64,000 nt of DNA from Trachythela sp. YZ-2020 (taxonomy: Eukaryota; Cnidaria; Anthozoa; Malacalcyonacea; Clavulariidae): positions 700,001 to 764,000 of the forward strand of contig JADLSH010000268.1 in the NCBI GenBank assembly GCA_016169945.1, read 5' to 3'. Both the position numbers and the translations under genes were made by a program. This document shows positions 8,650 to 62,862 of this stretch, one piece after another; the stretch's first letter is position 1, and the number at the start of each line of letters is the position of its first letter. The notes beneath the pieces were generated by a model. It saw nothing but the letters and a program-made list of their open reading frames with translations, did no database searches and was not told the origin of the DNA.

Positions 8650-10326
8650 ATGACTGAGATCGTAAGCGGAGTTTTGAAGCTTACATTTGGCTTTTTGGCG
8701 AACAAGGCTCGCAGTGAAATTGCGGAACGTTTGAAAGATGGCGACGTCACGGACGAAAAATGTCGGCGTTTGATCGTCAGGGAACTTGATGATATCAAAA
8801 CCAAGTTGGATGGTTTGGCGAGAGCGGATTTACTCAGTAGCCTTTGTTTTCTACAAGATGGAGTCAATGCACTATATCGGGCTCTACTTCAGTTTAAATC
8901 AACTGAGAATACAGCAGAATCGACCGAACAAGCGACCTTAGTTGAAGCTGCGTCATCCAGAGACACTGGTCCTGATTCTTCTATCAACGAGGCTGTTGCT
9001 TTGATAAATGCCATCGGTTCATTGAAAATACATTCCAACGAACACTTTAAGTCAGCCATAGAATCGTTCAAACTCGCACATGAAAATGCCACCAAAGCCT
9101 TCTGCAACGAAGCCTTGTCAATTGAGGACCGAATTCAAGCGTCGCAGGTTCGAATGACGGCCAGAATTTTAGAAAATTTGGAATACCCAGACGCAGGCGT
9201 AAGCGATTGTCTACAATACCTGGAGCAGCTTCATGGTATCGGAGCTATTCCCGAAATATTTTCCGTTCTGATTGACGGAGGAATCAAATCCCGGTTTAAT
9301 CAAAAGAAGCGACTTAACATTGCTTCGTCTGTTCATCATATGAATCAGCTATTGTTTGATTTCGCTAGAAAGTTCACGAAATTGCGATCAAGGTTTTTTG
9401 ACTGGCCCATGATTTTGCTTGGTGAGAAAAGTTATCATCCCGTGTTTGGAGAATATCGCCTTGTTAAAAAACTGAAGGAGTCTGGTGTGAAAGTTATGTC
9501 ACCGCATCCAGATTTTACATTTGGTGATCAAATTTTCTCTTACCACTCTGTTGTAAACAGCAAAAGAGAGATTGTTGCAGAGATGTTGGAAGAGAATACT
9601 ATTAAAATTTTTAAACCCTCAGGAGAATGCCGTACATTATGTGAAGTTCCCAAAGAAGGGCATGAGCCAGAATCCCATGTTGTTGCGATGGATATCGATG
9701 GCAAAGATAACCTTTACGTCATCACGAGATTTCGAGAAAGCTATTGTCAACCGTGGAGTTTTAAATTGTTTATGTTTGATGAGAATGGAGACAAAAAACT
9801 TGAGTCTCTGTTGCCTTTTCGTCAAAACTCTTCCACAGAAGTGTGTATGGCAATAAACAAGGACGGGAAGATTGCTATTTTAACATACGATCGGAATATC
9901 CTGTATATTGGAAACGTATGTATTGAGCTGAATTCGTTTAAAGTCGACAAAAGTTTTCATCTCGAGGAAGTATCTAGCGTTTGGGATATACAGTTCTCAG
10001 ATATTAATGAAACAAAAATAATTGCCGCAGGTGATGACACTGTTTATATTTACACAGAAAGCGGACAGTTTCAAGACAAAATTAAGATACCGAAAGAATA
10101 CAGAGATATTTCTTCGGTTGCAATAAATCACATCACAAAACGTATTCTGGTTAAAACGGGCTTCCCAACACGCGACAGTCTTCTCAGTTTCTCAGAAACT
10201 GGAGAACTAATAGACAGTTTATGTTTGGGGTCTAGCGAATGGATTAAATATGCTAAGCTAACTTCTCATCCAAATGGCGCAGTTGCTTTAGTTGGTTTCT
10301 TTGGGGCAGCTTTTCTTCAACTGTAG
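8650..10326 (+). CDS. Helical-domain/beta-propeller family protein, copy 1 (intact)
   Basis: 558 residues, unrecognised by name. Start chosen at MTEIVSGVLKLTFGF because this Met is shared by all six copies; the frame is open upstream but that extension is not conserved. Residues 1-245 look entirely alpha-helical, with an amphipathic hydrophobic first helix. A linker follows (FDWPMILLGEKSYHP), then from about 289 six blade-like repeats of about 47 residues, each with a 'd.DGkI.I' turn and an 'F.e.G' turn (FDENGDKKLE, YTESGQFQDK, FSETGELIDS). No signal peptide, membrane span or catalytic motif is apparent, so a cytosolic sensor or scaffold is likely. AATAAA lies at 10397-10402, 71 nt after the stop. 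A non-coding 5' exon is possible. Its linker closely matches copy 2, while its upstream flank matches copy 5. Confidence 0.8.
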   Translation: MTEIVSGVLKLTFGFLANKARSEIAERLKDGDVTDEKCRRLIVRELDDIKTKLDGLARADLLSSLCFLQDGVNALYRALLQFKSTENTAESTEQATLVEAASSRDTGPDSSINEAVALINAIGSLKIHSNEHFKSAIESFKLAHENATKAFCNEALSIEDRIQASQVRMTARILENLEYPDAGVSDCLQYLEQLHGIGAIPEIFSVLIDGGIKSRFNQKKRLNIASSVHHMNQLLFDFARKFTKLRSRFFDWPMILLGEKSYHPVFGEYRLVKKLKESGVKVMSPHPDFTFGDQIFSYHSVVNSKREIVAEMLEENTIKIFKPSGECRTLCEVPKEGHEPESHVVAMDIDGKDNLYVITRFRESYCQPWSFKLFMFDENGDKKLESLLPFRQNSSTEVCMAINKDGKIAILTYDRNILYIGNVCIELNSFKVDKSFHLEEVSSVWDIQFSDINETKIIAAGDDTVYIYTESGQFQDKIKIPKEYRDISSVAINHITKRILVKTGFPTRDSLLSFSETGELIDSLCLGSSEWIKYAKLTSHPNGAVALVGFFGAAFLQL

Positions 10327-11019
10327 TAAAATCACTTTCATGAAGGAAGATGTTAAAAATGCATTAGCCATTACTTTGATATTAACGAGCAATGGTAATA
10401 AAACTTTGTTTGTCAAAATTGGTAAACTCCATGAACTGTAGTATACAGTCAAATCTGTATATAACTGTGGAAACTGATTGCTTAATCCAGGTTCCTGTCT
10501 AATACAGGGCCGGTAAAAACACTAGTTTGCCGTGGTCAATTATATATTTGAATTCATAATTATACATTATATACAAACAATAAAATAATTTGTTTTTCAC
10601 AGCTTTTCATGACGCTGTTTCCCTTGGCCTCATAGACAGTAAATAAGTGTCAAATAACCTATATAAGAAAAATATGAATTTGTAAATGAAATGAAAGTAA
10701 AGAATAGCGACACCGAACTGATGAACAATTCCTAATTGTGTAGTATAGTTTTCACTTTGATATTTTTTGTAAGTAAAAATATATGATTTGTTGAACACAA
10801 ATTACAACAGCTCAAACTGTTAGATTTACAGTTAATTAATGCATGTGACGATCACGTGTATCCATGCAGGAACAAAGCCAAAACGTTTAAAAACGATCGC
10901 TTTCTTTTGGGAGGGGTGAAGGGGTAATGGTCAGATGAAAATCTTTTTGCAAAATTCAAAAACAACTTGTTAGCACTGCATGTATAACACTGAATGCAAA
11001 TGATAGTTACTTTCAAGAT
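10327..11019 (+). repeat. 3' UTR and conserved 3' flank of copy 1
   Basis: Conserved after all six copies (34367, 40043, 44584, 53147, 62863). It contains AATAAA at 10397 and a G-run (GGGAGGGG here) whose length differs between copies. The short minus-strand ORFs are not maintained between copies. Confidence 0.7.
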
Positions 11020-13160: not shown

Positions 13161-13660
13161 TGTAGAGGTTTTAGTATATGCATGCATATATGGGCTATTT
13201 TTACTGTTTCTGTTCGTACATTTCTACATAACATGTGTCATGGCCTCTGTATACAGAAATTGCATTGCAAATTGCCCAATGTTCTCAATTAAGACATATA
13301 GACTAAACATAGTCGTAGACTACAAGTTCTCGGCAGTTGGAGCTCTTTTACACACACATGAGTTCCAGGGAGGTACAATACGATTGAAGAAAAACGACAA
13401 TTAAAAATACATATTTTATACAACTGAACTTTAAGTTTGTAATATATAAGCTGCCGTTGGCCCACATGAAAAAGACTATGCGACCTCAAGAGCACTCCAA
13501 CATGAGTTGTACTTCAAATTGTCAAAGTGAACCGGTTTTGAAATATTCGTATGAATAGTGCAGGTGTTACGACAGTTACGTACAAGCGTCTACACAGAAT
13601 ATATGCGACGGCCGATTGAAGAAGAAAACAGAAACTTTTTGCTCAAGATCACGAGTTAAT

Positions 13661-14545
13661 ATGCATCTCAGCACTTTTTTTAACGCGCTATTTCTATGTG
13701 TTTTGAATGTTTTCTTCATGATCGCAGGAACGTTCCTAAATTCTGTGGTTATAATCAGTCTATGGAGATCGTCACAACTTCGAAAGAAACTATGCTACTT
13801 TATGATTCTTGTTCTATCTTGTTTTGATCTGGCTGTAGTCGTCATTACTCATCCTGCCTTTGTATTAATAACAATTTTCTGGTCTATAGAAGATTATAAT
13901 GAACTACGTGAAAAAATATTGGTATACATTGGTGGTCTCCTGCACGGCTTTTCAATGCTTGCCCTGTTGACCCTGAATATCGAAAGGTTCGTGGGCTTAA
14001 CCAATCCAATTTTCCATCGAACGTCAGTGACTAAGAGAAGGCTTGTATATCTTTTGACGTTTCTCGTGATTTTACTAGCAAGTCTGATGGCCTTATCTTT
14101 AGTAGACCAGAAAACATTTGTCCACGTAGTAGTAACGGTTTACCTTTCTATTTTGTTGTTGTTGTTGATCATTTACTTAAACTACAAAATGTTTATCATC
14201 GCGAAGACGAAGTCAAAACGGAACGATGCAACAATTGCTCAACTACAGCAACGACGAGTAATGAAGAAAGAAAAAGACACAAGTTGAATTTTAAAAGTAT
14301 TTCTACATGTTCTTTGACGGTTATTTGTTATTTCGTCTGTTCTTGTCCAAGAATGGCATATTCTACTTTACGTTTGACGTCGAATACGCCTTTTCACGAT
14401 AGACAAGTCTTGTTATTTCATATATGGTCTGGCACATTTCTCTATGAACTCGACATTCAACTGTCTGATATTTTTCTGGAGAAATTCCATCCTTCGTCGA
14501 GAAGGAATGAAGGTAGTAAAATGTTTTCGCACCGAAAGATCTTGA
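13661..14545 (+). pseudogene. Rhodopsin-class GPCR, frameshifted
   Basis: Seven-transmembrane receptor of the large cnidarian-type class A group; ligand unknown. From ATG 13661: TM1 (GTFLNSVVIISLW), TM2 (FMILVLSCFDLAVVV), TM3 ending LTLNIERF (ERF in place of DRY), TM4 (LVYLLTFLVILLASL), TM5 (VYLSILLLLLIIYLNYK). The frame stops at 14285 after QQRRVMKKEKDTS. TM6 (TVICYFVCSCPRMAYSTLRL) is in a different frame, and TM7 (SMNSTFNCLIFFWRNSILRR) is back in the first frame, ending in TGA at 14543. Two compensating frameshifts therefore flank TM6. It is a recent pseudogene or has sequence errors. Single-exon layout is normal for such receptors. Confidence 0.8.
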
Positions 14546-21981: not shown

Positions 21982-24900
21982 TCAAAACATTCGCGGAGTG
22001 GAGTCTTTCTTCAACACTACTACGTCACCAACGGCTATCGTTTCTCCTTCTGTCCCGTGAAGTACGCGCGAAGTCTCCCGAAGACTGAACAAATATTCCA
22101 TTCTCCAGCGATTAGTAAATTGCTCCAGTAAGCGCTTTTGATTCTTTGCTCGTTTGGTTAATGATCGATTAGTACTGATAATGTCGAATTGTCGATCACT
22201 GGGAGTCAACGCTATTTGTCTACCATAAATTAGTTGAGAGGGTGTAAGTGGGTACGACACGCCGTCCTCATCGTCATAGACATATGTAAGTGGTCTATTA
22301 TTTATCGTCGTCTCAATTTCTACTAAGAGTGTTCTCAATGACTCGAAGTCCATGGAAGATCGTCCGAGAGTTTTCTTCAAACACCTCTTAGTACTCTGTA
22401 TCATTCGTTCGTAGAATCCTCCTTGCCAGGGTGCTTTCTCTATAATGAATTCCCATTTTACGCCCTTCGAAGCCATTTCTCGTTGAATTTCGGAGGATCG
22501 CACGATGTTCTTCACCTCTTTCGATGCACTCTTGAAAGTCTTAGCATTGTCAGTTATTAATCTCGATGGCAAACCTCTTCGGGACACAAAGCGTCGAAAG
22601 GCTTGAAGAAATGAAGAAACGGATAAATACGGAACAAGTTCCAAGTGGACCGCCCTAGTAGAGGCGCACGTAAACAGACAGATATATACCTTCTTCGATT
22701 CGCAATTCGTCGCAGCATATAGAGGACCAGCAAAGTCAATACCTGTGTTGGCAAATGGTGGATCTTCGCAAACTCGACTTGATGGTAACGCTGGTTCTTT
22801 TGCCGCAGCAAAAGGTTTGGCCTCAAATCGTTTGCATATCACGCAACGTCTTACAATTCCTTTAACGCTCTCTCGACCACGCAACACCCAATATTTTCCT
22901 CGAACGCAATTTAGAGTTTCTCTAATTCCGTCGTGATGTACCAACTCGTGACTTTCGCGTATGATCAACTTTGTAAATTCATGCTTTGGTGGCAAAAGAA
23001 TTGGTTGTTTTGCATCATCAGGCAGCGCAGAGTGGCTAATTCGACCGTCACAACGAATAATCTTATCATCATCGAAAAATAAACCAAGCTGTTTAACTCG
23101 TAAGTTAGCGCGACCATTTCGAATACATTCGATCTCCTCGGCAAAGGCAGTGGACTGAATACTACAGATCCATAATTTCTCTGCTTCGTTTAATTCGTCA
23201 GAGTTTAACTCGGGTGACATGGTACAAGGTTGCTTTCTGGTCTTCTTTATGAATCGGATAACTAATGCTGTGACACGAAGTAACTTGGTCTTCGTGCTGT
23301 ATCTCTGAAGATCGACAAAGTTCTCCATATGGACAGAACTATTTAACGATATTCCAGACAAGGAATGCACGATCGGAGGCGGATTTTTCATCACTTCCTT
23401 GTAAGCTTCATCGTTGTTATTACTCGTAGGTTGAGGATCTACTGGCCATTGATCTTTTGACTGCTTCAGAAACCTTGGGCCATTCCACCAAGTTTCAGCT
23501 TCTGCGAGTTCGCGGCCCGAACAGCCACGAGAAGGCAAATCTGCGGGATTTAATTCCCCTGGGCAATGTCTCCATTCATGGTTGCTAGTTAAATCCCTGA
23601 TTTCATTTACTCGATTCTGGACAAACGTCTTCCACACCTTATGGTTTAGTATCCAACATAATGTGGTGAACGAGTCCGTCCATAAAACGACATCGGTAAT
23701 TTCCTTAATCGAAGTTAGGGCTTTAATGACAGAATCGACCAATCGCGCTAATATATTTGCTCCTAACAGTTCGAGTCGTGGTATGGTTTGTCGTTTGATA
23801 GGCGCAATTCGTGTTTTAGATGCAATCAAATTTATTTCAACTTCTCCATTGCTATGTTCTGTGCGAAGGTACACCACTGCAGCGAACGCAAGGTTGGATG
23901 CATCACAAAACCCGTGAATCTCATGAGTTCGAAATAGTTCGTCAAACCGGCGAAAGTAACATCTTGGTACTCGTATATCACTCAGGGATTGTAAATCCCT
24001 TACGAGAGACTTCCAACTCGCTAATGCCTTGCCATCTAACTCGTCATCCCAATTCAAGCTGGTGGTACACAGTGTTTGGAACAACACTTTCATGGTAACC
24101 GTAAATGGAGCGAAAAAACCGATGGGGTCAAATACCTTGGCAGAGAGCTTTAACACTGACCGTTTAGTAGAAGGAAGGGATTTCGCATAGTCAACTAACT
24201 CGCTGAGGTCATAACAAAATTCGTCACTGTCCTCGTTCCAACTAATTCCAAGAATCTTTACGCAATTCCTTTTCGGTACTGTAGTATCTTGCGATGGTGA
24301 ACTTGGTAATGAGGCTTCGCCAATACGTACTTCTGTGTCAGCAGTGGCGTTGTGGTGAGAGGATTCTAAATTCTCTTTCGTTGCTTCGTATTTCGTACCT
24401 CCATTTTCGCCTTCTTGTGATGCAATGAAATCTCGAACGTAGGCGGAGCTTGAATGCCATTTTCGAAGTTTGAACCCACCCTTGTTCATTAGATCACCAG
24501 ATGTGCGATAGATACGTAAGGCTTCTTCATCATCATGAGCTCCACTGGCCAAGTCATCGACATACAGAGACTCAAGCAACAATGAGACTATGTCAGGTGC
24601 GATTTCCTTGTATCTTGAAAGATGATGGGATATAGTGCTGGATAAGATAGCAGGACTGGGGGTTAGGCCAAATGGCAGACGTCGAAACTCGTATTCCTTG
24701 AGAGTAGGGGGGTCTTGAGTAATATCTTCGAACCAGAGAAACTTCAGCATCTTCCTATCCTCAGGAGCAATTTGTATCTGATGGAAGGCTTTCTCGATAT
24801 CAGCAACAAGTCCGATGGGGTAGCCTCTGAAATTTACAACTGTATCAAATAGTCGTGGAACCAAATTTGGGCCCTTTTGGAGACAATCGTTCAAAGATAG

Positions 24901-32680: not shown

Positions 32681-34366
32681 ATGACTGAGATCGTAAGCGG
32701 AGTTTTGAAGCTTACATTTGGCTTTTTGGCGAACAAGGCTCGCAGTGAAATTGCGGAACGTTTGAAAGATGGCGACGTCACGGACGAAGAATGTCGGCGC
32801 TTAATCGTCAGCAAACTTGATGATATCAAAACCAAGTTGGATGGTTTAGCGAGAAAGGATTTACTCAGTAGCCTTTGTTTTCTACAAGATGGAGTCAATG
32901 CACTATATCAGGCTCTACTTCAGTTTAAATAAACTGAGAATACAGCAGAATCGACCGAACAAGCGGCCTTAGTTGAAGCTGCGTCATCCAGAGACACTGG
33001 TCCTGATTCTTCTATCAACGAGGCTGTTGCTTTGATAAATGCCATCACTTCCTTGAAAATACATTCCAGCGAACGCTTTAAGTCTGCCATGAAATCATTC
33101 GAGCTCGCACATGAAAAAGCCACCGAAGCATTCTGCAACGAAGCCTTGTCAATTGAGGACCGAATTCAAGCGTCGCAGGTTCGAATGACGGCCAGAATTT
33201 TAGAAAAATTGGAATACCCAGACGCAGGCGTGAGCGATTGTCTACAATACCTGAAGCAGCTTCATGATATCGGAGCTATTCGAGAAATATTTTCCGTTCT
33301 GATTGACGGAGGATTCAAGTCGCGGTTAAATAAAACGAAGCGACTTAACAATGCCTCATCTGTTCATCTAATGAACCAGCTATTGTTTGATTTCGCTAGA
33401 AAGTTCACGAAATTGCGATCAAGGTTTTTTGACTGGCCCATGATTTTGCTTGGTGAGAAAAGTTACCATCCCGTGTTTGGAGAATATCGTGTTGTTAAAA
33501 AACTTAAAGAGTCTGGTGTGAAAGTTATGTCACTGTATCCAGATTTTACATTTGGTGATAGAATTTACGCTCTCACCTCTGTTGTAAACAGCGAAAGAGA
33601 GATTGTTGCAAAGATGTATAAAGAGGATACTATTAAAATTTTAAAACCCTCAGGAGAAAGCCGTACATTATGTGAAGTTCCCAAAGAAGAGCATGCGTCA
33701 AGATGCGATGTTGTTGCGATGGATATGGATGCCGAAGATAACCTTTACGTCATCACGGGATTTGAAGAAAGCGATGGTCAACCATGGAGTTTTAAGTTGT
33801 TTATCTTTGATGAGAATGGCGACAAAAAACTTGAGTCTCCGTTACTTTTTCATCAAAACTTTCCTTTGCCACGAGTGCGCATGGCAATAAACAAAGACGG
33901 GAAGATTGCTATTTTCGATTTCGTGAAGAGCATTGTGTATATTGGAAATGTATGTATTGAGCTGAATTCGTTTAAATTCGACAAAAGTTTTCATCTCAAC
34001 GAATTACCTAGCCACGAGTGTGTGAACATACGGTTCTCAGATATTAATGGAACAAAAATAATTGCCGCAGATTATGATGCTGTTTATATCTACACAGAAA
34101 ACGGACAGTTGCAACGCAAAATTCAGATACCGGAAGGACGTGGATTCATTTATTCGATTGCAGTAAATCATGTCACAAAACGTATTCTAGTTAAAACTGG
34201 CTGCTCATCACCCTACAGTCTTTTTAGTTTCTCAGAAACTGGAGAATTAATAGACAGTTTATGTTTGGGGTCTAGCGAATGGATTGAAGATGCTGAGATA
34301 ACTTCTCACCCAAATGGCGCAGTTGCTTTAGTTGGTAAAACAGGAGCAGCTTTTCTTCAACTGTAG
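32681..34366 (+). pseudogene. Helical-domain/beta-propeller family, copy 2 (one nonsense codon)
   Basis: 562-codon span that would be full length apart from one TAA at 32930-32932 (codon 84), where every other copy has TCA (Ser) in FKSTENTAES. The frame is otherwise open to 34366 and the propeller region looks well preserved, so inactivation is recent, allelic or a sequencing error. An internal Met at 33032 would give a 444-residue product lacking the first helices. The linker reads FFDWPMILLGEKSYHP as in copy 1. Blade loops differ from all others (RIYALTS, HQNFPLPRVRM, EGRGFIYS). AATAAA at 34432-34437. Confidence 0.8.
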
Positions 34367-37687: not shown

Positions 37688-37760
37688 TACTTTGCTTTTG
37701 GCTTTTTCGCAAACAAGGTTTGCAGTGAAATTGCGGAACGTTTCAAAGATGGCGACGTTA
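37688..37760 (+). pseudogene. N-terminal relic of the helical/beta-propeller family
   Basis: About 70 bp matching codons 12-34 of the family (TTTGGCTTTTTCGCAAACAA, then GCAGTGAAATTGCGGAACGT and AAAGATGGCGACGTTA), with both edges abrupt. A seventh, almost wholly deleted copy lying 600 bp before copy 3. Confidence 0.8.
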
Positions 37761-38350: not shown

Positions 38351-40042
38351 ATGACTGAGATCGTAAGCGGAGTTTTGAAGCTTACATTTGGCTTTTTGGC
38401 GAACAAGGTTCGCAGTGAAATTGCGGAACGTTTGAAAGATGGCGATGTCACGGACGAAGAGTGTCGGCGTTTGGTCGTCAGGGAACTGGATGACATCAAA
38501 ACCAAGTTGGATGGTTTAGCGAGAAAGGATTTACTGAGTAGCCTTTGTTTTCTACAAGAAGGAGTCAATGCACTATACCAGTCCCTACTTCAGTTTAAAT
38601 CAACTGAGAATACAGCAGAATCGACCGAACAAGCGGCCTTAGTTGAAGCTGCGTCATCCAGAGACACTGGTCCTGATTCTTCTATCAACGAGGCCATTGC
38701 TTTGATAAATGCCGTCACTTCATTGAAAATACATTCCAACGAACACTTTAAGTCTGCCATGGAGTCATTCAAACTCGCACGTGAAAAAGCCACCGAAGCA
38801 TTCTACAACGAAGCCTTGTCAATTGAGGACCGAATTCAAGCGTCGCAGATTCGAATGGCGGCCAGAATTTTAGAAAAATTGGAATACCCAGACGCAGGCG
38901 TAAGCGATTGTTTACAATACCTGAAGCAGCTTCATGATATCGGAGCTATTCGAGAAATATTTTCTTGTTTGATTGACGGGGGATTCAAATCGCGGTTTAA
39001 TAAAACGAAGCGACTTAACAACGCTTCGTCCGTTCACCTAATGAATCGACTATTGTTTGATTTCGCCAGAAAGTTCACGAATTTGCGACTAGCGATTTTG
39101 GCGGACTGGCCCACAATTTTGCTTGGTAAGAAAAATTACCGTCCCGTGTGTGGAGAATATCGTCTTGTTGAAAAACTTAAAGAGTCTGGTGCGAAAGTTA
39201 TGTCACTGTATCCAGATTTTACATTTGGTGATGAAATTTTCCCTTCCCACTCTGTTATAAACAGCAAAAGAGAGATTGTTGCAAAAGTGTGTAGAGAGGA
39301 TACTATTAAAATTTTTAAACCCTCTGGAGAAAGCCGTACATTATGTGGAGTTCCCAAAGAAGAGCATGCGTCACAATGCCTATTTGCTGCAATGGATATC
39401 GATGCCGAAGATAACCTTTACGTCATCACGGCATTTCGAGGAAGCGATGGTCAATCATGGGTTTTTAAGTTGTTTATCTTTGATGAGAATGGAAACAAAA
39501 AACTTGAGTCTCCGTTACCTTTTCATCAAAGCTCTCCTTTGCTACGATTGCACATAGCAATAAACAAGGACGGGAAGATTGCTATTTTCGAATTCGTGAC
39601 GAACATTCTGTGTATTGGGAACGTATGTATTGAGCTGGATTCGTTTAAAGTCGACAAAAGTTTTCATCTCAACGAAATATCTAGCTACCATGAGTTTGTG
39701 AACATGCAGTTCTCAGATATTAATGGAGCAGAAATAATTGTCGCAGATTATGATACTGTTTATATCTACACAGAAAACGAACAGTTACAACGCAAAATTA
39801 AGATACCGGAAGGACATGAATTGATTTATTCGGTTGCAATAAATCATGTCACAAAACGTATTCTAGTTAAAACTGGCTACTCATCACCCTGCAGCCTTTT
39901 CAGTTTCTCAGAAACTGGAGAACTAATATACAGTTTATGTTTGGGGTCTAGCGAATGGATTAAACGTGCTAAGGTAACTTCTCATCCAAATGGCGCAGTT
40001 GCTTTAGTTGGTGAAACAGGAGCAGCTTTTCTTCCACTGTAG
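38351..40042 (+). CDS. Helical-domain/beta-propeller family protein, copy 3 (intact)
   Basis: 563 residues from the conserved MTEIVSGVLKL start; an in-frame upstream Met at 38315 is not shared. The N-terminal helical domain differs from copy 4 at only scattered sites. The linker is LAILADWPTILLGKKNYRP, the version shared with copies 4 and 5. Blade loops are distinctive: EIFPSHS, KVCRED, QCLFA, the long HQSSPLLRLHI, ISSYHEFVNMQ, EGHELIYS, YSSPCSL and ETGAAFLP. The blades themselves (FDENGNKKLES, FSETGELIYS) are kept. AATAAA at 40110-40115. Function not known; a recognition role is inferred from the loop pattern. Confidence 0.82.
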   Translation: MTEIVSGVLKLTFGFLANKVRSEIAERLKDGDVTDEECRRLVVRELDDIKTKLDGLARKDLLSSLCFLQEGVNALYQSLLQFKSTENTAESTEQAALVEAASSRDTGPDSSINEAIALINAVTSLKIHSNEHFKSAMESFKLAREKATEAFYNEALSIEDRIQASQIRMAARILEKLEYPDAGVSDCLQYLKQLHDIGAIREIFSCLIDGGFKSRFNKTKRLNNASSVHLMNRLLFDFARKFTNLRLAILADWPTILLGKKNYRPVCGEYRLVEKLKESGAKVMSLYPDFTFGDEIFPSHSVINSKREIVAKVCREDTIKIFKPSGESRTLCGVPKEEHASQCLFAAMDIDAEDNLYVITAFRGSDGQSWVFKLFIFDENGNKKLESPLPFHQSSPLLRLHIAINKDGKIAIFEFVTNILCIGNVCIELDSFKVDKSFHLNEISSYHEFVNMQFSDINGAEIIVADYDTVYIYTENEQLQRKIKIPEGHELIYSVAINHVTKRILVKTGYSSPCSLFSFSETGELIYSLCLGSSEWIKRAKVTSHPNGAVALVGETGAAFLPL

Positions 40043-41443: not shown

Positions 41444-42906
41444 TTATAGCTTTTTAGTTATCCTCCTAGCAGACAAACACGCAAACACACACATACTGTA
41501 ACCTGCTAGCGAGATAATAACTAGTTAACATACTAGGAGTTACTATCGCAAGGAAGTGCTGCTGCAGAAGCCTTAAATGACCACTGTCTGCCACACAGGC
41601 TATGACCATTGACCAATATGCCTCTATTTACTCTGTTTAAAAACACACAACTAAATGTAGATGCATGCCCGGCTTAAAGGATCTCGTTTATATGAACAGC
41701 TTATATTTATACAAGCTATGACCAGCCTCTATCGTTGACATGATAGCGGTTGTACCTCAGCTGTTTGACGTCTTGTCCTGTGTTTAGTGATCGTGTACTG
41801 ATTTCAAATATAAAGTGATTTTAGACAGAACTGCTCCAACGATAATGCGAATAAAACCATCGCTCATCGCCTGTTGCGCATCGATTTTCAATGCTGAGTT
41901 TAAATGCTTTGGTTTATATATAGTAAGGTGTGATTACAAGTTAGTGATAGAATATAGGTGATTATAGAGATTGTGGTACGAGGTTGTGTTGGCAAGTGAT
42001 TCTGTGATTTGAACGGTGATAATAAATATAACAAAAATCTATATTGTGAGTTATGTGGGTTTAACACTGAGCATTTGACGGCATTACAAACATTATTTTA
42101 ATGTCTGTGTATATGATCCCAGTTACCGAGACATCTCACCTAGTACTTTTGATGTATTGAAATTAGTTACGGTTATTGACTACGTGAAATTTCGTGTATT
42201 TTACGATACAGAGTACAGGAAGACAACAACAGAAAGCCAGTTTATAGAGCGATTATAATGTAGTAACAACATAAGGATCTCACCAACAACATTTTAGTTT
42301 TAAACATCGCGTGATTTTTGTATTATACATGCTGACTTATTTCAATGGTCATTAAATGTATCCATTGCGTAGGCTGTGATTTACCTCCCACGTGCATAAT
42401 GACTTATCAGAGAATGTTACATATCTGTGTGTTCATCAAATAGAAAAAGCTAAAGTGAGCAAAACATATATATGTGTCATTCTCTCACAAGATCAAACTT
42501 GTCGATTCTATGGAATTACATTCGAAAACAAATAAGATATACGAACTTTTCTTATAAACCCATTATGGATATGTGACGTGGACTTGCATACCAAACATTA
42601 TTGAAATCTTAAAAACAAGTCGGCAAAGAAACGAATGTCTTTTAGAGTAGATATTTTGTAGTTTTGAAATATTTTATGAATAGGACAATAAAATACACTA
42701 TATTCACATTTAAAACCCAACATTGTACTATCGGCATAAATTTGACTCGGTGTTGAATTTTTAGTTTTGAATAAAGGACAATAAAATAGTTTGTATTTGA
42801 ATAAAAAGAGATGTCATGCAGGGCCATGCATGCATATATTGATCTTGTGACTGTCTCAAGTTATTAATATAACGTTTGTTTTGGTGAATGCTTCATTAAT
42901 TTCAAG
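41444..42906 (+). promoter_or_regulatory. Complete upstream block of copy 4 (uninterrupted)
   Basis: Full-length version, with empty sites for BEL (about 41722), the LINE (about 42017) and the Tc1-like element (about 42326). TATA-like GGTTTATATATAG at 41911, leader-like core GTGTGATTACAAGTTAGTGA after it, and a possible donor GAACGGTGATAA. The last 300 bp match only copy 6. A non-coding first exon spliced to the acceptor-like TTTCAAG before the ATG at 42907 is a reasonable hypothesis; no transcript is available. Confidence 0.4.
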
Positions 42907-44583
42907 ATGACTGAGATCGTAAGCGGAGTTTTGAAGCTTACATTTGGCTTTTTAGCGAACAAGGCTCGCAGTGAAATTGCGGAACGTTTGAAAGATGGCG
43001 ACGTCACGGACGAAGAGTGTCGCCGCTTGATCGTCAGCGAACTTGATGACATCAAAACCAAGTTGGATGGTTTGGCGAGAAAGGATTTACTGAGTAGCCT
43101 TTGTTTTCTACAAGAAGGAGTCAATGCACTATATCAGGCTCTACTTCAGTTTAAATCAACTGAGAATACAGCAGAATCGACCGAACAAGCGACCTTAGTT
43201 GAAGCTGCGTCATCCAGAGACACTGGTCCTGGTTCTTCTATCAACGAGGCTGTTGCTTTGATAAATGCCATCACTTCCTTGAAAATACATTCCAGCGAAC
43301 GCTTCAAGTCTGCCATGAAATCATTCGAGCTCGCACATGAAAAAGCCACCGAAGCATTTTGCAACGAAGCCTTGTCAATTGAGGACCGAATTCAAGCGTC
43401 GCAGGTTCGAATGACCTCCAGAATTTTAGAAAAATTGGAATACCCAGACGCAGGCGTAAGCGATTGTCTACAATACCTGAAGCAGCTTCATGATATCGGA
43501 GCTATTCGAGAAATATTTTCGGTTTTGATTCACGGGGGATTCAAGTCGCTTTTTAATAAAACGAAGCGACTTAACAACGCTTCGTCCGTTCACTTCATGA
43601 ACCGACTATTGTTTGATTTCGCCAGAAAGTTCACGAATTTGCGACTAGCGATTTTGGCGGACTGGCCCACAATTTTGCTTGGTAAGAAAAATTACCGTCC
43701 ACTGTTTGGAGAATATCGTCTTGTTGAAAAACTTGAAGAGTCTGGTCTGAAAGTTATGTCATTGTATCCAGATTTCACATTTGGTGATGAAATTTCCTCT
43801 GACCACTCTGTTATAAACAGCAAAAGAGAGATTGTTGCAAAGATGAGTGAAGAGGATACTATTAAAATTTTTAAACCCTCAGGAGAAAGCCGTACATTAT
43901 GTGAAGTTCCCAAAGAAGAGCATGCGTCAGAATGCCGTGTTGCTGCGATGGATATCGATGCCGAAGATAACCTTTACGTCATCACGGGATTTCGAGAAAG
44001 CGATGATCAATCATGGAGTTTTAAGTTGTTTATCTTTGATGAGAATGGAAACAAAAAACTTGAGTCTATGTTACCTTCTCATCTGAATCGGGTGCGCATG
44101 GCAACAAACAAAGACGGGGAGATTGCTATTTTAGATAACGTGGAGAACATTCTCTATATTGGAAATGTATGTATTGACATGAATTCGTTTAAAGTCGACA
44201 AAAGTTTTCATCTCAACGAATTACCTAGCCACCTGCGTGTGAACATACAGTTCTCAGATATTAATGGAGCAGAAATAATTGCCGCAGATCGTGATACTGT
44301 TTATATCTACACAGAAGACGGACAGTTACAACGCAAAATTAAGATACCGAAAGGACATGGAGGGATTTATTCCGTTGCAGTAAATTATGTCACAAAACGT
44401 ATTCTAGTTAAAACTGGCTGCTCATCACCCTACAGTCTTTTCAGTTTCTCAGAAACTGGAGAATTAATAGACAGTTTATGTTTGGGGTCTGGCGAATGGA
44501 TTGAAAATGCTAAGCTAACTTCTCATCCAAATGGCGCAGTTGCTTTAGTTGGTTACAGTGAAGCAGCTTCACTTCAACTGTAG
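42907..44583 (+). CDS. Helical-domain/beta-propeller family protein, copy 4 (intact)
   Basis: 558 residues; used as numbering reference. Helical domain 1-245, beginning EIVSGVLKLTFGFLANKARS, a hydrophobic helix followed by charged helices. Linker 248-288. Six blades, with first-strand turns at N304 (NSK), 351 (DAEDN), 401 (NKDGE), 451 (DINGA), 494 (YVTK) and 540 (HPNGA), and outer turns PSGE (324), DENGN (378), TEDGQ (469) and SETGE (515). Variable loops at 295-300, 313-316, 341-345, 391-397, 439-448, 460-463, 481-487, 504-510, 532-537 and 549-556. No catalytic motif. AATAAA at 44646-44651. The unbroken upstream block makes this the best candidate for an expressed copy. Confidence 0.83.
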   Translation: MTEIVSGVLKLTFGFLANKARSEIAERLKDGDVTDEECRRLIVSELDDIKTKLDGLARKDLLSSLCFLQEGVNALYQALLQFKSTENTAESTEQATLVEAASSRDTGPGSSINEAVALINAITSLKIHSSERFKSAMKSFELAHEKATEAFCNEALSIEDRIQASQVRMTSRILEKLEYPDAGVSDCLQYLKQLHDIGAIREIFSVLIHGGFKSLFNKTKRLNNASSVHFMNRLLFDFARKFTNLRLAILADWPTILLGKKNYRPLFGEYRLVEKLEESGLKVMSLYPDFTFGDEISSDHSVINSKREIVAKMSEEDTIKIFKPSGESRTLCEVPKEEHASECRVAAMDIDAEDNLYVITGFRESDDQSWSFKLFIFDENGNKKLESMLPSHLNRVRMATNKDGEIAILDNVENILYIGNVCIDMNSFKVDKSFHLNELPSHLRVNIQFSDINGAEIIAADRDTVYIYTEDGQLQRKIKIPKGHGGIYSVAVNYVTKRILVKTGCSSPYSLFSFSETGELIDSLCLGSGEWIENAKLTSHPNGAVALVGYSEAASLQL

Positions 44584-45276
44584 TAAAGTCACTTTCATGA
44601 AGGAAAATGTTAAAATGGAATACTTTGACATCAAAGAGCAATGGCAATAAAACTTGAGTTTGTCAAGATTGGTAAAGTCCTTGAACTGTAGTATACAGTC
44701 AAATCTGTATATAACTGTGGAAACTGACTGCTTAATACAGGTCCCTGTCTAATACAGGGCCGGTAAAAACACTAGTTTGCCGTGGTCAATTATATATTTA
44801 AATTCATATGCATTATACGAACACTAAAATAATTTGTTTTTCGTAGCTTTTCATGACGCTGTTTCCCTTGGTCTCATAGACAGTAAATAAGTGTCAAATA
44901 ACCTATATAAGAAAAATATGAATTTGTAAATGAAACCGGAGTTTCAAGTAGAATTAAAGTAAAGAATAGCGACACCGAACTGATGAACAATTCCTAATTG
45001 TGAAGTATAGTTTTGACTTTGATATTTTTGTAAGTAAAAATATATCATTTGTTGAACACAAATTACAACAGCTCAAACTGTTAGATTTACAGTTAATTAA
45101 TGCATGTGACGATCACGTGTACCCAGGAACAAAGCCAAAACGTTAAAGAAACGATCGCTTTTTTTGGAGGGGGGGGGGGCGTAATTGTCAAATGAAAATC
45201 TTTTTGCAAAACACAAAAACAACTTGTTAGCCCTGCATGTATAACACTGAATGCAAATGATAGTTACTTTCAAGAT
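44584..45276 (+). repeat. Conserved 3' flank of copy 4
   Basis: As after copy 1, with AATAAA at 44646 and a G-run of 10 near 45170. Confidence 0.65.
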
Positions 45277-45439
45277 ATGCTGAGGGTCTGTAGAATCAAA
45301 CTACCTGAAAAATACAACAAGAACTTTGACATTTCGACTATAATGGACCTAACTTCCAGACGAAGGAAGGGCCTTCGCTTGAAACGTCGAAGTTCTTTGT
45401 TGTATTTTTCAGGTAGTTTGATCCTAAAGACTCGCAGGA
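45277..45439. mobile_element. 163-bp foldback element, copy 4
   Basis: As at 11020-11182. Confidence 0.65.
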
Positions 45440-45511
45440 TATCGTGTATAGACGTTACCTACACTGAAACTACCCGTTCAAGATATTAATATACTTTCAA
45501 TGTCGTTCTTA

Positions 45512-45702
45512 AGACCTGTTCACACGATCAGATTTGTCGGATCTGATTCTCCTCTTGACGTATGTGATTTACTGGATTTGCTGACAAGAGTAAGGCTATT
45601 GGCTCATACCTGACGAAAAGTGTAGTTGTTGCTGTATTGTGTGAAATCACATACGTCAGGAGGAGAATCGGATTCTACAAATCGGATCGCGTGAACAGAC
45701 CT
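45512..45702. mobile_element. Harbinger-like MITE, copy 4
   Basis: As at 35290-35480; TTA on both sides. Confidence 0.6.
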
Positions 45703-45748
45703 TTAGTTTCAAATACACAATAGCGACATAATTGATATTTTCTTGCTG

Positions 45749-46555: not shown

Positions 46556-49500
46556 TTCAATTCTATATATTCTGCCTACTCGATGTAGAGTACGAAATAT
46601 TGAGCAAATGAAAACAACAAAGTCTAATTATATTCCCGTCATTCAGTATACAAGAAGGACATATACTGGCTATAGAAATTATAGACGGAATAATGAACGC
46701 CTCGTTGAACATAATAATTTACTCCAAATTCAAGGTCCGTTTTCAAACAATTCGCGAAGGAACAGGCTTTCTATGCCCGTTAGTTGTCCCATTCCACCCC
46801 CTGTAGATGGTCAATCTCAACTACGCGACGGTTTACGGTTTGCATGTGTTAATGCTCGGTCGGTACGAAATAAGACTACGGAATTAGTGGAGTATATTGT
46901 AGACTCGAATATTGATATATGTATTATTACTGAAACATGGCTAAAAGAATACGATTATGTTACTGCTGCGGCGTTGTCGCCCAATGGTTACGGTTTTAAA
47001 GGCTTTCCTAGACAGTCAAATAGAGCAGGTGGTGGAACTGGAATCATGTTTAAAAACTCATTAACTGTATCTATGGTCGAAGGGAAAGAAATGAAATCGT
47101 TTGAATATTCTGAGTGGAATGTTTGCATACACAAACGTAACATTAAATTAGTGGCATTGTATCGCCCTCCATATTCAGAGGCTCATCCAGTGTTGCCTAA
47201 TATATTTTTCGAGGAGTTTTCAAATTATCTTGAGTCAATTGTCATGTCCCCTGAGTCGTTGGTAATTACAGGGGATTTCAATTTTCATCTTGACTGTGCC
47301 TCTGATAACAATGCTAATAAGTTTATTGAACTCTTAGAGACTTTTGGACTATGTCAACATGTAAATGTACCAACTCACTCCTCTGGTCATATACTTGACC
47401 TTATTATCACGCGAGCGAACCTGGATATCAAAATAACCGAACCAACCACCACCACATTTCTCTCGGATCACTTGTTCGTAGAATGCAAATTAGATGTCCC
47501 TCGACCTAATTTATCGGTAAAAGAACTTCGTTTTCGAAAGTTAAAACAGATAAACTTGAACTCTTTTAAAGATGATATTTTGTCGTCCGAATTATATTCT
47601 AGGACAACCTGGCAGGATATAAATGAGTTGGCTAATTGCTATGACAACACCCTTATGCTAATATTGGAAAATCATGCTCCGCTTAAATGTAAGACCATGG
47701 TTATTAGGCCCAAAATACCCTGGTTCAGTGATAACCTTAAGAAGCTCAAGCGGAAGCGAAGAAAATTGGAACGAAAAATGTTAAGAACTCGACGTTCATG
47801 TGACAAAGAAGCATATCGTATAGTGCGTGACGAGTATTCATCCCTACTGAATGAAAGTAAAATATCTTATTATGCCGACTTGATTGATGATTGCGCAGGG
47901 GATTCGAAAAAACTTTTTCGAGTAATCAATATGATATCGAAAAAGCATCAACCTGATCTATTACCACCTCACGATGATCCCCTTGTCTTGGCTAATCAGT
48001 TTGGAGAATACTTCTGTCGGAAGATAGAACTAATTAAAACAGAAATTGACAGCATCGTTGTTGAGACCCCTGCAGTTGAACACCCACAACATGTTCCTAA
48101 ACTAGAGGCTTTCTCCCCCCTTTCAGAGGAAGATGCACACAGAATTATTATGAACTCATCCAATGCCTCTTGTCAGCTAGACCCTATTCCAACATCACTT
48201 GTAAAGACGTGTTGTGATGTTCTTGTTCCAATCATTACCAAAATGGTGAATTTGTCTCTAGAAGATTGTGTCGTACCCGATAAATGGAAAGTTGGTCTTG
48301 TTTTACCTTCGTTGAAAAAGCAGAATCTTGACTTGGTGTTTTGTAACTTTAGACCTGTGAGTAATTTACCATTTGTCTCCAAAATTGCTGAAAAGGCAGT
48401 GCTGCCAGACATGTTAGATCATTGTTCAATTAACTCACTTATGCCATCACATCAGTCGTCCTATCGGAAATTTCACTCCACCGAGACTGCCTTGTTGAAA
48501 GTCCACAACGATATTCTCTTGAATATGGACCAACAAGAGATTACATTACTTGTTCTTTTAGATCTAAGTGCTGCGTTTGATACGATTGACCACACTGTTC
48601 TGTTGGAAACCTTGGAATCTGACTTTGGAATAGTGGGGAATGCCCAGAATTGGATTGCTTCTTTTTTGCTAGGAAGAGAACAACGTATTGTTATTGATCA
48701 AGTTCAATCAGAAGGTCGTGGTTTAACCTCCGGTGTTCCTCAGGGTACTTGCTTGGGACCAGTGCTATTTCTCCTTTACGCTTCAGGAATATTTAAAATA
48801 GTTTCAAAACATCTCCCTTCCGCCCACGGCTTCGCTGACGACACCCAATTATACCTTTCATTTAAACCAACGTCTTCGTCCTCCCAGTCGGATGCTATTC
48901 GACTAATGGAGGAATGCATAGCTGAAGTTCGAGCCTGGTTAATTGGACATAAACTGTTAATTAATGATACAAAGACTGAGTTTCTGATCATTGGTTCCAG
49001 ACAGCAGCTGACTAAGGTGACCGTTAACTCTATTAATGTTGGAGAATCCATGATTATGCCGATATCATCTGTGCGCAACCTTGGTACTTGGTTCGATAAT
49101 CAAATGTCAATGAGTGTCCACGTTGGAAAAGTTTGCAGCAAGGCATTTCGTAGTTTGTATAACATTCGTCAAATTCGAAAGTTTTTAACTCCTGACTCGA
49201 CGAAAACACTAATTCATGCCTTAGTCACATCACATCTTGACTACTGTAACTCTTTGTTATATGGTATACCCCAGTACCAATTTAATAGATTACAGAGAAT
49301 TTTGAACGCTGCTGCTCGAGTCGTCTGCGTAGTTCCTAAGTTTGAGCATATCTCACCAATCTTAAAGAAGCTGCATTGGTTGCCTGTTCGATATCGCGTG
49401 GAGTTTAAAATTGCTCTCATTGTTTTTAAAGTGTTACATGGGGAGGCACCTGCATACCTTGAGAACTTGCTTCGATTAAAGGACGTAGGAACTTATCGTT

Positions 49501-49872
49501 TAAGATCTAGTGAACAGAAACTACTCGTTGTTCCAAGAACAACTTGTAAAACATTTGGAGACCGTGCTTTTCTAAAAGCTGGTCCTGTTGTGTGGAATAG
49601 CTTGCCTCTTAATATAAGAGAAACTTCCAATGTTTCAACTTTTAAGAAACTCTTAAAGACCTTTTTGTTCACAAAGGCCTTTGATTTATAGAAAGACTTG
49701 TAGTTTTTAGCAATTTTATGATATAACATTTTGGACTCCTGTAAAAGATATATATTTATACATACATTTATTTATATAGTTAGATAACAAAAGTTGTAAG
49801 TTGTAAACTGCGCTTTAGAATATTTATAGTTTCAGCGCAATATAAATACTTTTTAAATTAAATTAAATTAAA
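46556..49872 (+). mobile_element. CR1/L2-like LINE, apparently complete
   Basis: Non-LTR element with one long intact ORF, a short 5' leader and a 3' UTR ending in (ATTAA)n-type repeats (TTTAAATTAAATTAAATTAA at about 49853). Unoccupied sequence at about 6868 runs TTCTGCCTTTTGTTGAAATA. At the occupied site, about 15 bp of target (GAAATACTGTAGCTG) is missing and CAATTCTATATATTCTGCC is duplicated at the 5' junction (46532, 46557). No simple target duplication, so element edges are approximate. Confidence 0.88.
46608..49691 (+). CDS. LINE endonuclease/reverse transcriptase (ORF2-like), intact
   Basis: 1027 codons. N-terminal apurinic-type endonuclease: CVNARSVRNK (about 80), ITETWL, GTGIMFKN, ITGDFNFHLD (about 220), SDHLFVECKL (about 286). 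Then a basic linker (LKKLKRKRRKLERKM) and reverse transcriptase: NFRPVSNLPFVSKIAEK, QSSYRKFHSTETALL, LLDLSAAFDTIDH, SGVPQGTCLGPVLF, and the catalytic FADD (about 741). The C-terminal domain ends PVVWNSLPLNIRETSN, as in CR1/L2-type elements. No stop or frameshift, so it may be or recently have been active. A separate ORF1 was not found; the leader is only about 50 bp. Confidence 0.92.
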   Translation: MKTTKSNYIPVIQYTRRTYTGYRNYRRNNERLVEHNNLLQIQGPFSNNSRRNRLSMPVSCPIPPPVDGQSQLRDGLRFACVNARSVRNKTTELVEYIVDSNIDICIITETWLKEYDYVTAAALSPNGYGFKGFPRQSNRAGGGTGIMFKNSLTVSMVEGKEMKSFEYSEWNVCIHKRNIKLVALYRPPYSEAHPVLPNIFFEEFSNYLESIVMSPESLVITGDFNFHLDCASDNNANKFIELLETFGLCQHVNVPTHSSGHILDLIITRANLDIKITEPTTTTFLSDHLFVECKLDVPRPNLSVKELRFRKLKQINLNSFKDDILSSELYSRTTWQDINELANCYDNTLMLILENHAPLKCKTMVIRPKIPWFSDNLKKLKRKRRKLERKMLRTRRSCDKEAYRIVRDEYSSLLNESKISYYADLIDDCAGDSKKLFRVINMISKKHQPDLLPPHDDPLVLANQFGEYFCRKIELIKTEIDSIVVETPAVEHPQHVPKLEAFSPLSEEDAHRIIMNSSNASCQLDPIPTSLVKTCCDVLVPIITKMVNLSLEDCVVPDKWKVGLVLPSLKKQNLDLVFCNFRPVSNLPFVSKIAEKAVLPDMLDHCSINSLMPSHQSSYRKFHSTETALLKVHNDILLNMDQQEITLLVLLDLSAAFDTIDHTVLLETLESDFGIVGNAQNWIASFLLGREQRIVIDQVQSEGRGLTSGVPQGTCLGPVLFLLYASGIFKIVSKHLPSAHGFADDTQLYLSFKPTSSSSQSDAIRLMEECIAEVRAWLIGHKLLINDTKTEFLIIGSRQQLTKVTVNSINVGESMIMPISSVRNLGTWFDNQMSMSVHVGKVCSKAFRSLYNIRQIRKFLTPDSTKTLIHALVTSHLDYCNSLLYGIPQYQFNRLQRILNAAARVVCVVPKFEHISPILKKLHWLPVRYRVEFKIALIVFKVLHGEAPAYLENLLRLKDVGTYRLRSSEQKLLVVPRTTCKTFGDRAFLKAGPVVWNSLPLNIRETSNVSTFKKLLKTFLFTKAFDL

Positions 49873-51497: not shown

Positions 51498-53146
51498 ATG
51501 ACTGAGATCGTAAGCGGAGTTTTGAAGCTTACATTTGGCTTTTTAGCGAACAAGGCTCGCAGTGAAATTGCGGAACGTTTGAAAGATGGCGACGTCACGG
51601 ACGAAGAATGTCGGCGCTTAATCGTCAGCAAACTTTATGATATCAAAACCAAGTTGGATGGTTTAGCGAGAAAGGATTTACTCAGTAGCCTTTGTTTTCT
51701 ACAAGATGGAGTCAATGCACTATACCAGGCTCTACTTCAGTTTAAATCAACTGAGAATACAGCAGAATCGACCGAACAAGCGACCTTAGTTGAAGCTGCG
51801 TCATCCAGAGACACTGGTCCTGATTCTTCTATCAACGAGGCTATTGCTTTGATAAATGCCTTCAGTTCATTGAAAATACATTCCAACGAACACTGTAAGT
51901 CAGCCATAGAATCGTTCAAACTCGCACATGAAAAAGCCACCGAAGCATTCTGCAACGAAGCCTTGTCAATTGAGGACCGAATTCAAGCGTCCCAAGTTCG
52001 AATGGCGGCCAGAATTTTAGAAAAATTGGAATACCCAGACGCAGGCGTAAGCGATTGTCTACAATACCTGAAGCAGCTTCATGATATCGGAGCTATTCGA
52101 GAAATGTTTTCTGTTTTGCATGACGGGGGATTCAAATCGCGGCTTAATAAAACGAAACGACTTAATAACGCTTCGTCCGTTCACTTAATGAACCGACTAT
52201 TGTTTGATTTCTCCAGAAAGTTCACGAATTTTCGACTGGCGATTTTGGCGGACTGGCCCACAATTTTGCTTGGTAAGAAAAATTACCGTCCCGTGTTTGG
52301 AGAATATCGTGTTGTTGAAAAACTTGAAGAGTCTGGTGCGAAAGTTATGTCACTGTATCCAGATTTTACATTTGGTGATAAAATTTACCCTTACCACTCT
52401 GTTCTAAACAGCAAAAGAGAGATTGTTACAAAGATGTATGAAGAGGATACTATTAAAATTTTTAAACCCTCAGGAGAAAGCCGTACATTATGTGAAGTTC
52501 CCAAAGAAGAGCATGCGTCAAGATGCGATGTTGTTGCGATGGATATCGATGCCGAAGATAACCTTTACGTCATCACGGGATTTCAAGAAAGCTATGGTCA
52601 ACCATGGAGTTTTAAGTTGTTTATCTTTGATGCGAATGGAAACAAAAAACTTGAGTCTCCGTTACCGTTTCTTCTGAATTCGGTGCGCATGGCAATAAAC
52701 AAAGACGGGAAGATTGCTATTTTAGATATCGTGGAGAACATTCTGTATATTGGAAATGTATGTATTGAGCTGAATTCGTTTAAAGTCGACAAAAGTTTTC
52801 ATCTCAACGAATTATCTAGCGACCAGTGTGTGTACATACGGTTCTCAGATATTAATGGAGCAGAAATAATTGCCGCAGGAAGTCGTACTGTTTTTATCTA
52901 CACAGAAAACGGACAGTTCAACGCACAATTAGGATACCGGAAGGACATGGATTGATTTATTCGGTTGCAGTAAATCATGTCACAAAACGTATTCTAGTTA
53001 AAACTGGCTACTCATCACCCTGCAGTGTATTTAGTTTCTCGGAAACTGGAGAATTAATATACAGTTTATGTTTGGGGTCTAGCGAATGGATTCCAGACGC
53101 AGTTGCTTTCGTTGGTTACAGAGGAGCAGCTTTTCTTCAACTGTAG
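51498..53146 (+). pseudogene. Helical-domain/beta-propeller family, copy 5 (frameshifted)
   Basis: Open for 485 codons from the conserved Met, then out of frame after YTENGQF because one A is missing in GGACAGTTCAACG (others GGACAGTTACAACG, about 52918). The proper frame resumes at 52952 and ends at 53146. A separate in-frame 27-bp deletion removes most of the ..AEITSHPNGA blade-6 strand (SSEWIPDAVAFVG). Helical domain intact; linker of the LADWPTILLGKKNYRP type. The truncated product would lose blades 5-6, so the propeller could not close. Variable loops: KIYPYHS, FLLNSVRM, LSSDQCVYIR. AATAAA at 53214-53219. Confidence 0.82.
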
Positions 53147-53852
53147 TAAAATCACTTTCATGTCGAATGAAAATGTTTAAAAATGCAATACTTTGACATC
53201 AAAGAGCAATGGTAATAAAACTTTGTTTGTCAAGATTGGTAAACTGCTTGAACTGTAGTATACAGTCGAATCTGTATATAACTGTGGAAACTGACTGCTT
53301 AAAACAGGTCCCCGTCTAATACAGGGCCGGTAAAAACACTAGTTTGTCGTGGTCAATTATATATTTAAATTCATATGCATTATACGAACACTAAAATAAT
53401 TTGTTTTTCGTAGCTTTTCATGACGCTGTTTCCCTTGGCCTCATAGACAGTAAATAAGTGTCAAATAACCTATATAAGAAAAATATGAATTTGTAACTGA
53501 AACCGGAGTTTCAAGTAGAATTAAAGTAAATAATAGCGACACCGAACTGATGAACAATTCTTAATTGTGTAGTATAGTTTTGACTTTGTTTTTTTTGTAA
53601 GTAAAAATATATCATTTGTTGAACACAAATTACAACAGCTCAAACTGTTAGATTTACAGTTAATTAATGCATGTGACGATCACGTGTACCCAGGAACAAA
53701 GACAAAACGTTAAGAAAACGATCGCTTTTTGGGGGGCGTAATTGTCAGATGAAAATCTTTTTGCAAAATTCAAAAACAATTGCAAAATTCAAAAACAACT
53801 TGTTAGCACTGCATGTATAACACTGAATGCAAATGATAGTTACTTTCAAGAT
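53147..53852 (+). repeat. Conserved 3' flank of copy 5
   Basis: As after copy 1, with AATAAA at 53214 and a short tandem repeat of TTGCAAAATTCAAAAACAA at 53760-53797. Confidence 0.6.
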
Positions 53853-61192: not shown

Positions 61193-62862
61193 ATGACTGA
61201 GATCGTAAGCGGAGTTTTGAAGCTTACATTTGGCTTTTTGGCGAACAAGGCTCGCAGTGAAATTGCGGAACGTTTGAAAGATGGCGACGTCACGGACGAA
61301 GAATGTCGGCGTTTGATCGTCAGGGAACTGGATGACATCAAAACCAAGTTGGATGGTTTAGCGAGAAAGGATTTACTGAGTAGCCTTTGTTTTCTACAAG
61401 ATGGAGTCAATGCACTATATCAGGCTCTACTTCAGTTTAAATCAACTGAGAATACAGCAGAATCGACCGAACAAGCGGCCTTAGTCGAAGCTGTGTCATT
61501 CAGAGACACTGCTCCTGATTCTTCTATCAACGAGGCTATTGCTTTGATAAATGCCTTCAGTTCATTGAAAATACATTCCAACGAACACTGTAAGTCAGCC
61601 ATAGAATCGTTCAAACTCGCACATGAAAAAGCCACCGAAGCATTCTGCAACGAAGCCTTGTCAATTGAGGACCGAATTCAAGCGTCGCAGGTTCGAATGG
61701 CGGCCAGAATTTTAGAAAAATTGGAATACCCAGACGCAGGCGTAAGCGATTGTCTACAATACCTGAAGCAGCTTCATGATATCGGAGCTATTCGAGAAAT
61801 ATTTTCCGTTCTGATTGACGGAGGATTCAAGTCGCGGTTAAATAAAACGAAGCGACTTAACAATGCCTCATCTGTTCATCTGATGAACCAACTATTGTTT
61901 GATTTCGCCAGAAAGTTTACAAACTCGCGAGCAGCGATATTTGACTGGCCCACGATTTTGCTTGGAAAGAAAAGTTACCATCCCTTACTTGGAGAAGATC
62001 GCCTTTTTAAGAAACTTAAAGAGTCTGGTGTGAAAGTTATGTCACCGTATCCAGATTTTACATTTGGTGATAAAATTTCCCCTGACTGCTCTGTTGTAAA
62101 CAGCAAAAGAGAGATTGTTGCAAAGATGAGTGGAGAGGATACTATTAAAATTTTTAAACCCTCAGGAGAAAGCCGTACATTATGTGAAGTTCCTAAAGAA
62201 GAGCATGCGTCAAGATGCGATGTTGTTGCGATGGATATCGATGCCGAAGATAACCTTTACGTCATCACGAGATTTCGAGAAAGTGATGGTCAACCATGGG
62301 GTTTTAAGTTGCTTGTCTTTGATGAGAATGGAAACAAAAAACTTGAGTCTCCGTTACCTTTTCATCTGACTTCAGTGAATTTGGTGCGCATGACAATAAA
62401 CAAAGACGGGAAGATTGCTATTTTAGATTTCATGAAGAACATTCTGTATATTGGAAACGTATCTATTGAACTGAATTCGTTTAAAGTCGACAAAACGAAA
62501 TATCTGGCCTCCTGTGTGTGAACATACGGTTCTCAGATATTAATGGAACAAAAATAATTGCCGCAGAAGGTCGTACTGTTTATATCTACACAGAAAACGG
62601 ACAGTTACAACGCAAAATTGAGATACCGGAAGAACATGGATTGATTAATTCGGTTGCAATAAATCACATCACAAAGCGTATTCTAATTAACACGTACGAC
62701 TCAACAGGCTACAGTGTATTTAGTTTCTCGGAAACTGGAGAACTAATATACAGTTTATGTTTGGGGTCTAGCGAATGGATCGATTATGCTAAGCTAACTT
62801 CTCACCCAAATGGCGCGGTTGCTTTAGTTGGTAAAAGAGGACCAGCTTTACTTCAACTGTAG
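61193..62862 (+). pseudogene. Helical-domain/beta-propeller family, copy 6 (frameshifted)
   Basis: Open for 442 codons from the conserved Met, then stops at 62521 because a net loss of about 13 bp replaces KSFHLNELPSHE by KTKYLASC and shifts the frame before VNIRFSDING. The correct frame resumes at 62518 and runs to 62862, covering blades 4-6. The linker is unique (FDWPTILLGKKSYHPLLGED), combining elements of the copy 1/2 and copy 3/4/5 types. Variable loops: KISPDCS, MSGED, HLTSVNLVRM, EEHGLINS, YDSTGYSV. Helical domain intact, 1-245. AATAAA at 62928-62933. Confidence 0.82.

Follow-up and report, generated by a model that had tools for sequence, protein, structure and literature searches.

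Organization of the gene cluster

The window, which is the whole analyzed stretch of 64,000 nucleotides from Trachythela sp. YZ-2020, carries a + strand tandem cluster of six copies of one gene between positions 8650 and 62862, all in the same orientation (Table 1). Three of the six copies (1, 3, and 4) were open over their full length. Copies 2, 5, and 6 were broken and may be pseudogenes or assembly errors; the frameshifts of copies 5 and 6 both fell within the propeller.

Table 1. Features of the cluster in window positions; residue numbers refer to copy 4.
Feature	Position	Strand	Basis or remark
Copy 1	8650..10326	+	Intact; 558-residue-class protein; frame without intron; open frame starts at 8572
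Copy 2	32681..34366	+	Match over full length; in-frame stop at codon 84
Copy 3	38351..40042	+	Reading frame intact
Copy 4	42907..44583	+	Reading frame intact; supplies reference numbering
Copy 5	51498..53150 (3' end approximate)	+	Frameshift near 52920; some codons missing near 3' end
Copy 6	61193..62862	+	Frameshift near 62500
5' leader of copy 4, about 90 bases	42817..42906	+	Alignable in six copies; mean p-distance 0.139
N-terminal helical region of copy 4, residues 1-245	42907..43641	+	Model and omega
Six-bladed NHL-type propeller of copy 4, residues 288-558	43768..44580	+	Model and positive-selection tests
3' noncoding flank of copy 4, about 1.1 kb	44584..45703	+	Common to six copies; mean p-distance 0.020-0.067
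Inverted-repeat element in 3' flank of copy 4	45271..45446	.	Inverted-repeat detection
Second inverted-repeat element, 3' flank of copy 4	45508..45706	.	Inverted-repeat detection

Several other elements were found in and around the cluster. A short + strand match to N-terminal residues 13-34 lies upstream of copy 3 (37697-37762) and is perhaps the remnant of another copy. Copies 1 and 2 are separated by a BEL/Pao-type retrotransposon on the - strand (21982-27596; Peptidase_A17, RVT_1, and integrase zinc-binding matches), and copies 4 and 5 by a LINE-type element on the + strand (46608-49691) with endonuclease and reverse transcriptase in a single open frame of 1027 residues. Also on the + strand are two adjacent open frames with pieces of reverse transcriptase (28184-29662) and a Rhodopsin-family GPCR-like fragment (13616-14287; Pfam 7tm_1, 32.5 bits against a cut-off of 30.5).

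The two parts of the protein differed in conservation among the six copies. The mean pairwise identity of residues 1-245 was 91.2%, with 194 of 245 columns invariant, compared to 76.8% and 127 of 271 columns in the propeller (288-558). This agrees with the contrast drawn in the first-pass annotation, whose description of the N-terminal 245 residues as almost invariant was slightly too strong. At the nucleotide level the p-distance was 0.062 in the N-terminal coding region, 0.127 in the linker, and 0.116 in the propeller, and the 3' flank was less diverged than the propeller. A 30-base piece of an arm of the element at 45271..45446 recurred without mismatch at 11040, 35075, 40705, 53873, and 63551, and was thus present in all six flanks. 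Upstream of the leader, sequence was common only to pairs of copies (1 and 5, 4 and 6, partly 2 and 3), which could represent different promoter types.

The synonymous divergence among the copies was 0.12-0.15, and the low divergence of the 3' flank beside this value suggests conversion between copies, although constraint on a 3' UTR may be responsible instead. A recombination signal, seen as clustered compatible sites, was present in the N-terminal region (p 0.0005) as well as the 3' flank (p 0.006), with no such clustering in the propeller (p 0.43), and incompatible site pairs were abundant overall (0.56-0.61). In trees, the three intact copies belonged to a clade of 4 by the N-terminus and to a clade of 11 by the propeller (support 0.67).

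A protein search gave 495 matches at E 0.001 among the 7991 scored candidates that shared most words, and the best 120 of the 495 were examined. Named relatives among the matches listed were proteins of Paramuricea clavata, Dendronephthya gigantea, and Xenia. From these 120, 87 mostly near full-length homologues were picked by hand and 33 were left out, with the window sequences excluded. Two distant sets were chosen by rank and length, comprising 46 of the 49 sequences P0143-P0191 and 19 of the 24 sequences P0199-P0222. When the three sets were combined in one tree, the 87 homologues formed one clade with the window sequences and the 46 formed another, from which the 19 were not separate. No description of the family was found in the listed titles and abstract starts of open-licence PMC papers.

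Predicted fold and the position of variable sites

The structure predicted for the C-terminal part is a six-bladed propeller, as the first-pass annotation had supposed. DSSP analysis of the model gave five four-stranded blades and a last blade with three strands, and the nearest solved folds were the NHL domains of Brat, Mei-P26, NHL-2, TRIM71, and TRIM2. In profile comparisons, TRIM2 NHL matched weakly (whole-sequence E 2e-4), no Pfam NHL repeat reached the gathering score in the six window proteins, and among nine homologues only P0119 showed one, at 18.1 bits and below the cut-off of 20. In homologue P0061, a segment of about 20 residues in blade 2 (EERASK...AIDAEDN) occurs three times in tandem, which hints at in-frame expansion inside the propeller. 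The N-terminal helical region gave no confident match in the fold comparison (candidates included pore formers, 14-3-3, and Cry domain I), and residues 87-113 of copy 4 had a pLDDT under 50.

The variable clusters previously placed between blades (295-300 to 532-537) and in mid-blade (313-316 to 549-556) coincided with DSSP loops. To compare the faces, loop classes were taken from the model, independently of variability. Among the six copies, invariant columns made up 20 of 29 in AB and 16 of 23 in CD, compared to 5 of 25 in BC and 23 of 47 in DA, confirming that the AB and CD turns hardly change. Loop lengths also varied, by up to four residues in the 391-397 loop and up to three in the 439-448 loop. 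The former was 7 to 11 residues long in the alignment rather than 7 to 12 as first reported, and such variation is not by itself an argument against neutral drift, as which it had been offered.

The same asymmetry was shown by the outside homologues. The mean site rates in the 87 homologues were 2.10 for BC and 1.60 for DA, compared to 0.64 for AB and 0.66 for CD; the structured N-terminus had a rate of about 0.43. Strand residues evolved more slowly toward the bottom of the propeller (1.24 in the top third, 0.47 in the bottom third). In the distant sets of 46 and 19 sequences, the top rates were 2.03 and 1.87 and the bottom rates 0.48 and 0.58. The linker (246-287) was also fast in the 87 homologues, with a mean site rate of 1.07. 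The faster evolution of BC and DA loops may partly be generic to propellers. Together with the selected sites described below, these results place the variation mainly on one face rather than on both.

Codon-level selection on the propeller

The DNA-level tests used the six copies, three of them broken, from one cluster of one species. A dN/dS of 1.97 obtained with the loop list of the first-pass annotation is circular, because that list was chosen by variability; the fair tests are those with structure-defined loop classes and those with outside homologues. By counting in the six copies, DA and BC together had a dN of 0.240 and a dS of 0.187, compared to 0.053 and 0.136 for AB and CD. For BC the values were 0.368 (dN) and 0.162 (dS), and for DA alone 0.173 and 0.200, a ratio below 1. 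With copies 1, 3, and 4 only, dN/dS was 1.45 in the top loops and 1.10 in the bottom loops, the latter a value based on few pairwise differences (28 nonsynonymous, 6 synonymous). The bottom loops thus have a low dN, and a dN/dS below 1 is not established for them.

Likelihood estimates were then compared between regions. The omega of the N-terminal region in the six copies was 0.38 (0.28 by counting), and that of the propeller was 1.54, with a 2dlnL of 7.81 against a value of 1. Within the propeller, omega was 1.92 in the top loops, 1.59 in the strands (p 0.043), and 0.82 in the bottom loops, the last indistinguishable from 1. The three intact copies gave 1.39 for the propeller (p 0.11), 1.98 for the top loops (p 0.047), and 1.96 for the bottom loops (p 0.28).

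Codon site models supported positive selection in the propeller. The 2dlnL of M2a over M1a was 101 for the propeller of the six copies and 46.9 for that of the three intact copies, compared to 1.06 and 3.42 for the N-terminus. Since three copies have one topology, a wrong topology cannot explain the three-copy signal. The propeller values were 67.0 (six) and 26.7 (three) when multi-nucleotide changes were allowed, 75.3 and 43.0 when gap-adjacent codons were dropped, and 115 on a star tree. In 60 simulated nulls for the six copies, 30 of them with tree labels shuffled per 20 codons, the maximum was 14.5, and in 60 for the three copies it was 8.7. The nulls at times exceeded the chi-square expectation, which makes the nominal p values too low; the observed values lay far above all simulated nulls. 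At 23 propeller sites the NEB posterior exceeded 0.9 in the six copies, and 22 of these were in the top half, which holds 149 of the 268 classified sites; the top loops contained 14 of them and the bottom loops none, each single site being a candidate only, because NEB posteriors ignore parameter uncertainty. The loops of the top face therefore do not show the dN/dS well below 1 that would speak against diversification.

Interpretation and comparison with known systems

The proposal that variation on one face, joined to a constant domain, marks a diversifying recognition family is supported by the fold, the position of the variable sites, and dN/dS. Within that proposal, the immune or allorecognition role of the family and the effector or oligomerisation role of its N-terminus are inferences. 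We consider the most probable reading, at a probability of roughly 0.6, to be an octocoral tandem recognition family, in which a conserved helical N-terminus is joined to an NHL-type propeller with a positively selected upper face and a likely microbial or viral partner. The upper face, which comprises the DA and BC loops together with the strand ends next to them, is under positive selection and would contact an ever-changing partner, most likely a molecule from a microbe or virus. The proteins would presumably reside in the cytosol, and the conserved N-terminus would most likely serve a downstream step common to all members, for example oligomerisation or signalling. The N-terminus and the 3' flank would be held similar through exchange between copies and the propeller faces held different through selection, with copies being gained and lost. 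Positive selection does not by itself identify immunity, but a constant part, a selected variable contact face, and broken members in a cluster suit a recognition family.

Comparisons with HET-D/HET-E, tachylectin-2, and LIN41 led us to favour pathogen recognition over allorecognition, and the latter over RNA regulation. Octocorals are colonial animals, and their colonies might compare propeller faces as fungi do with HET-D/HET-E. According to the available part of PMC1805685, the selected codons of HET-D/HET-E in Podospora map to the d-a loop and to the b-c turn, at the top of a WD40 propeller that evolves in concert, which is the geometry of the selected sites here. As described there, the Podospora HNWD genes are likewise a multigene family with positive selection on the DA/BC face, exchange between members, and inactivated members; they differ in having near-identical shuffled WD40 repeats that follow a NACHT domain, in place of an NHL-type propeller with a helical N-terminus. 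Membership in the NLR/STAND class of HNWD was rejected, as no NACHT or NB-ARC NTPase match was found with Pfam in the window proteins. Inspection of the translations by eye revealed neither an obvious signal peptide nor a membrane segment, which speaks against comparison between colonies, and we regard allorecognition as unlikely.

NHL propellers are known mainly for RNA binding, and the TRIM-NHL proteins (Brat, Mei-P26, TRIM2/3/71) share the six-bladed fold, so that the genes might encode RNA-binding regulators with a diversified RNA-reading face. The upper surface of the LIN41 NHL propeller binds RNA through a basic patch, as far as the available text of PMC5908797 describes it, whereas the top loops here were acidic, with a mean net charge of -4.84 in the 87 homologues; the individual charges of the three intact copies were -8, -11, and -12. 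The bottom loops were equally acidic (-6.05), and acidity is therefore not peculiar to the top face. Unlike TRIM-NHL proteins, this family is a clustered multigene family with a hypervariable top face, and no RING or B-box match was found with Pfam in the six window proteins (E 1) or in nine homologues (E 0.5). We consider a role as RNA regulators improbable.

Tachylectin-2 is a five-bladed propeller, and membership in this lectin family was rejected for the six-bladed octocoral model. The coral tachylectin-2 gene is an anthozoan propeller gene with tree-dependent site-model support for selection among alleles; in the available part of PMC2880987 it was modelled on the tachylectin-2 structure, and its selected sites showed no significant 3-D clustering. 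The window proteins also resemble another group in their architecture. TRIM5alpha and finTRIM B30.2 proteins likewise pair an unvarying helical portion with a beta domain that diversifies in its loops, but their domain is a B30.2 sandwich rather than a propeller, and RING and B-box are present.

Relaxed constraint in a redundant, partly decaying array, with a drifting propeller whose loops tolerate change, would fit the three broken copies, the varying loop lengths, and a one-ratio propeller omega that is indistinguishable from 1 in the intact copies. M1a, which allows neutral sites, was rejected in the intact copies alone and beyond the simulated nulls, and the outside homologues repeat the face asymmetry, so this explanation has little probability. 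Other forms of diversifying selection, for example in gamete recognition or symbiont tolerance, would be expected to yield the same evolutionary pattern, and we give them slightly less weight still. The least probable explanation is that recombination with divergent donors or biased repair mimics selection on the propeller, as the incompatible pairs and clustered compatible sites might suggest, because block-shuffled nulls and the single-topology three-copy nulls stayed far below the observed values and GC was as high in the top loops (0.433) as in the bottom loops (0.431).

More tentatively, and with the odds somewhat against it, the recognition family may be a large clustered octocoral family of intracellular proteins that couple an unclassified helical effector to the hypervariable NHL face. 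It would then act as a repertoire of receptors diversified in the germline and would not depend on the NLR, TRIM, and lectin systems. If the recognition reading is right, cnidarians would possess a germline-diversified recognition repertoire built on a beta-propeller, separate in origin from fungal HET-D/HET-E and using the same face. The molecules that octocorals recognize, and the triggering of defence or cell death by the constant helical part, would become testable, and the NHL propeller would have been turned into a variable recognition surface.
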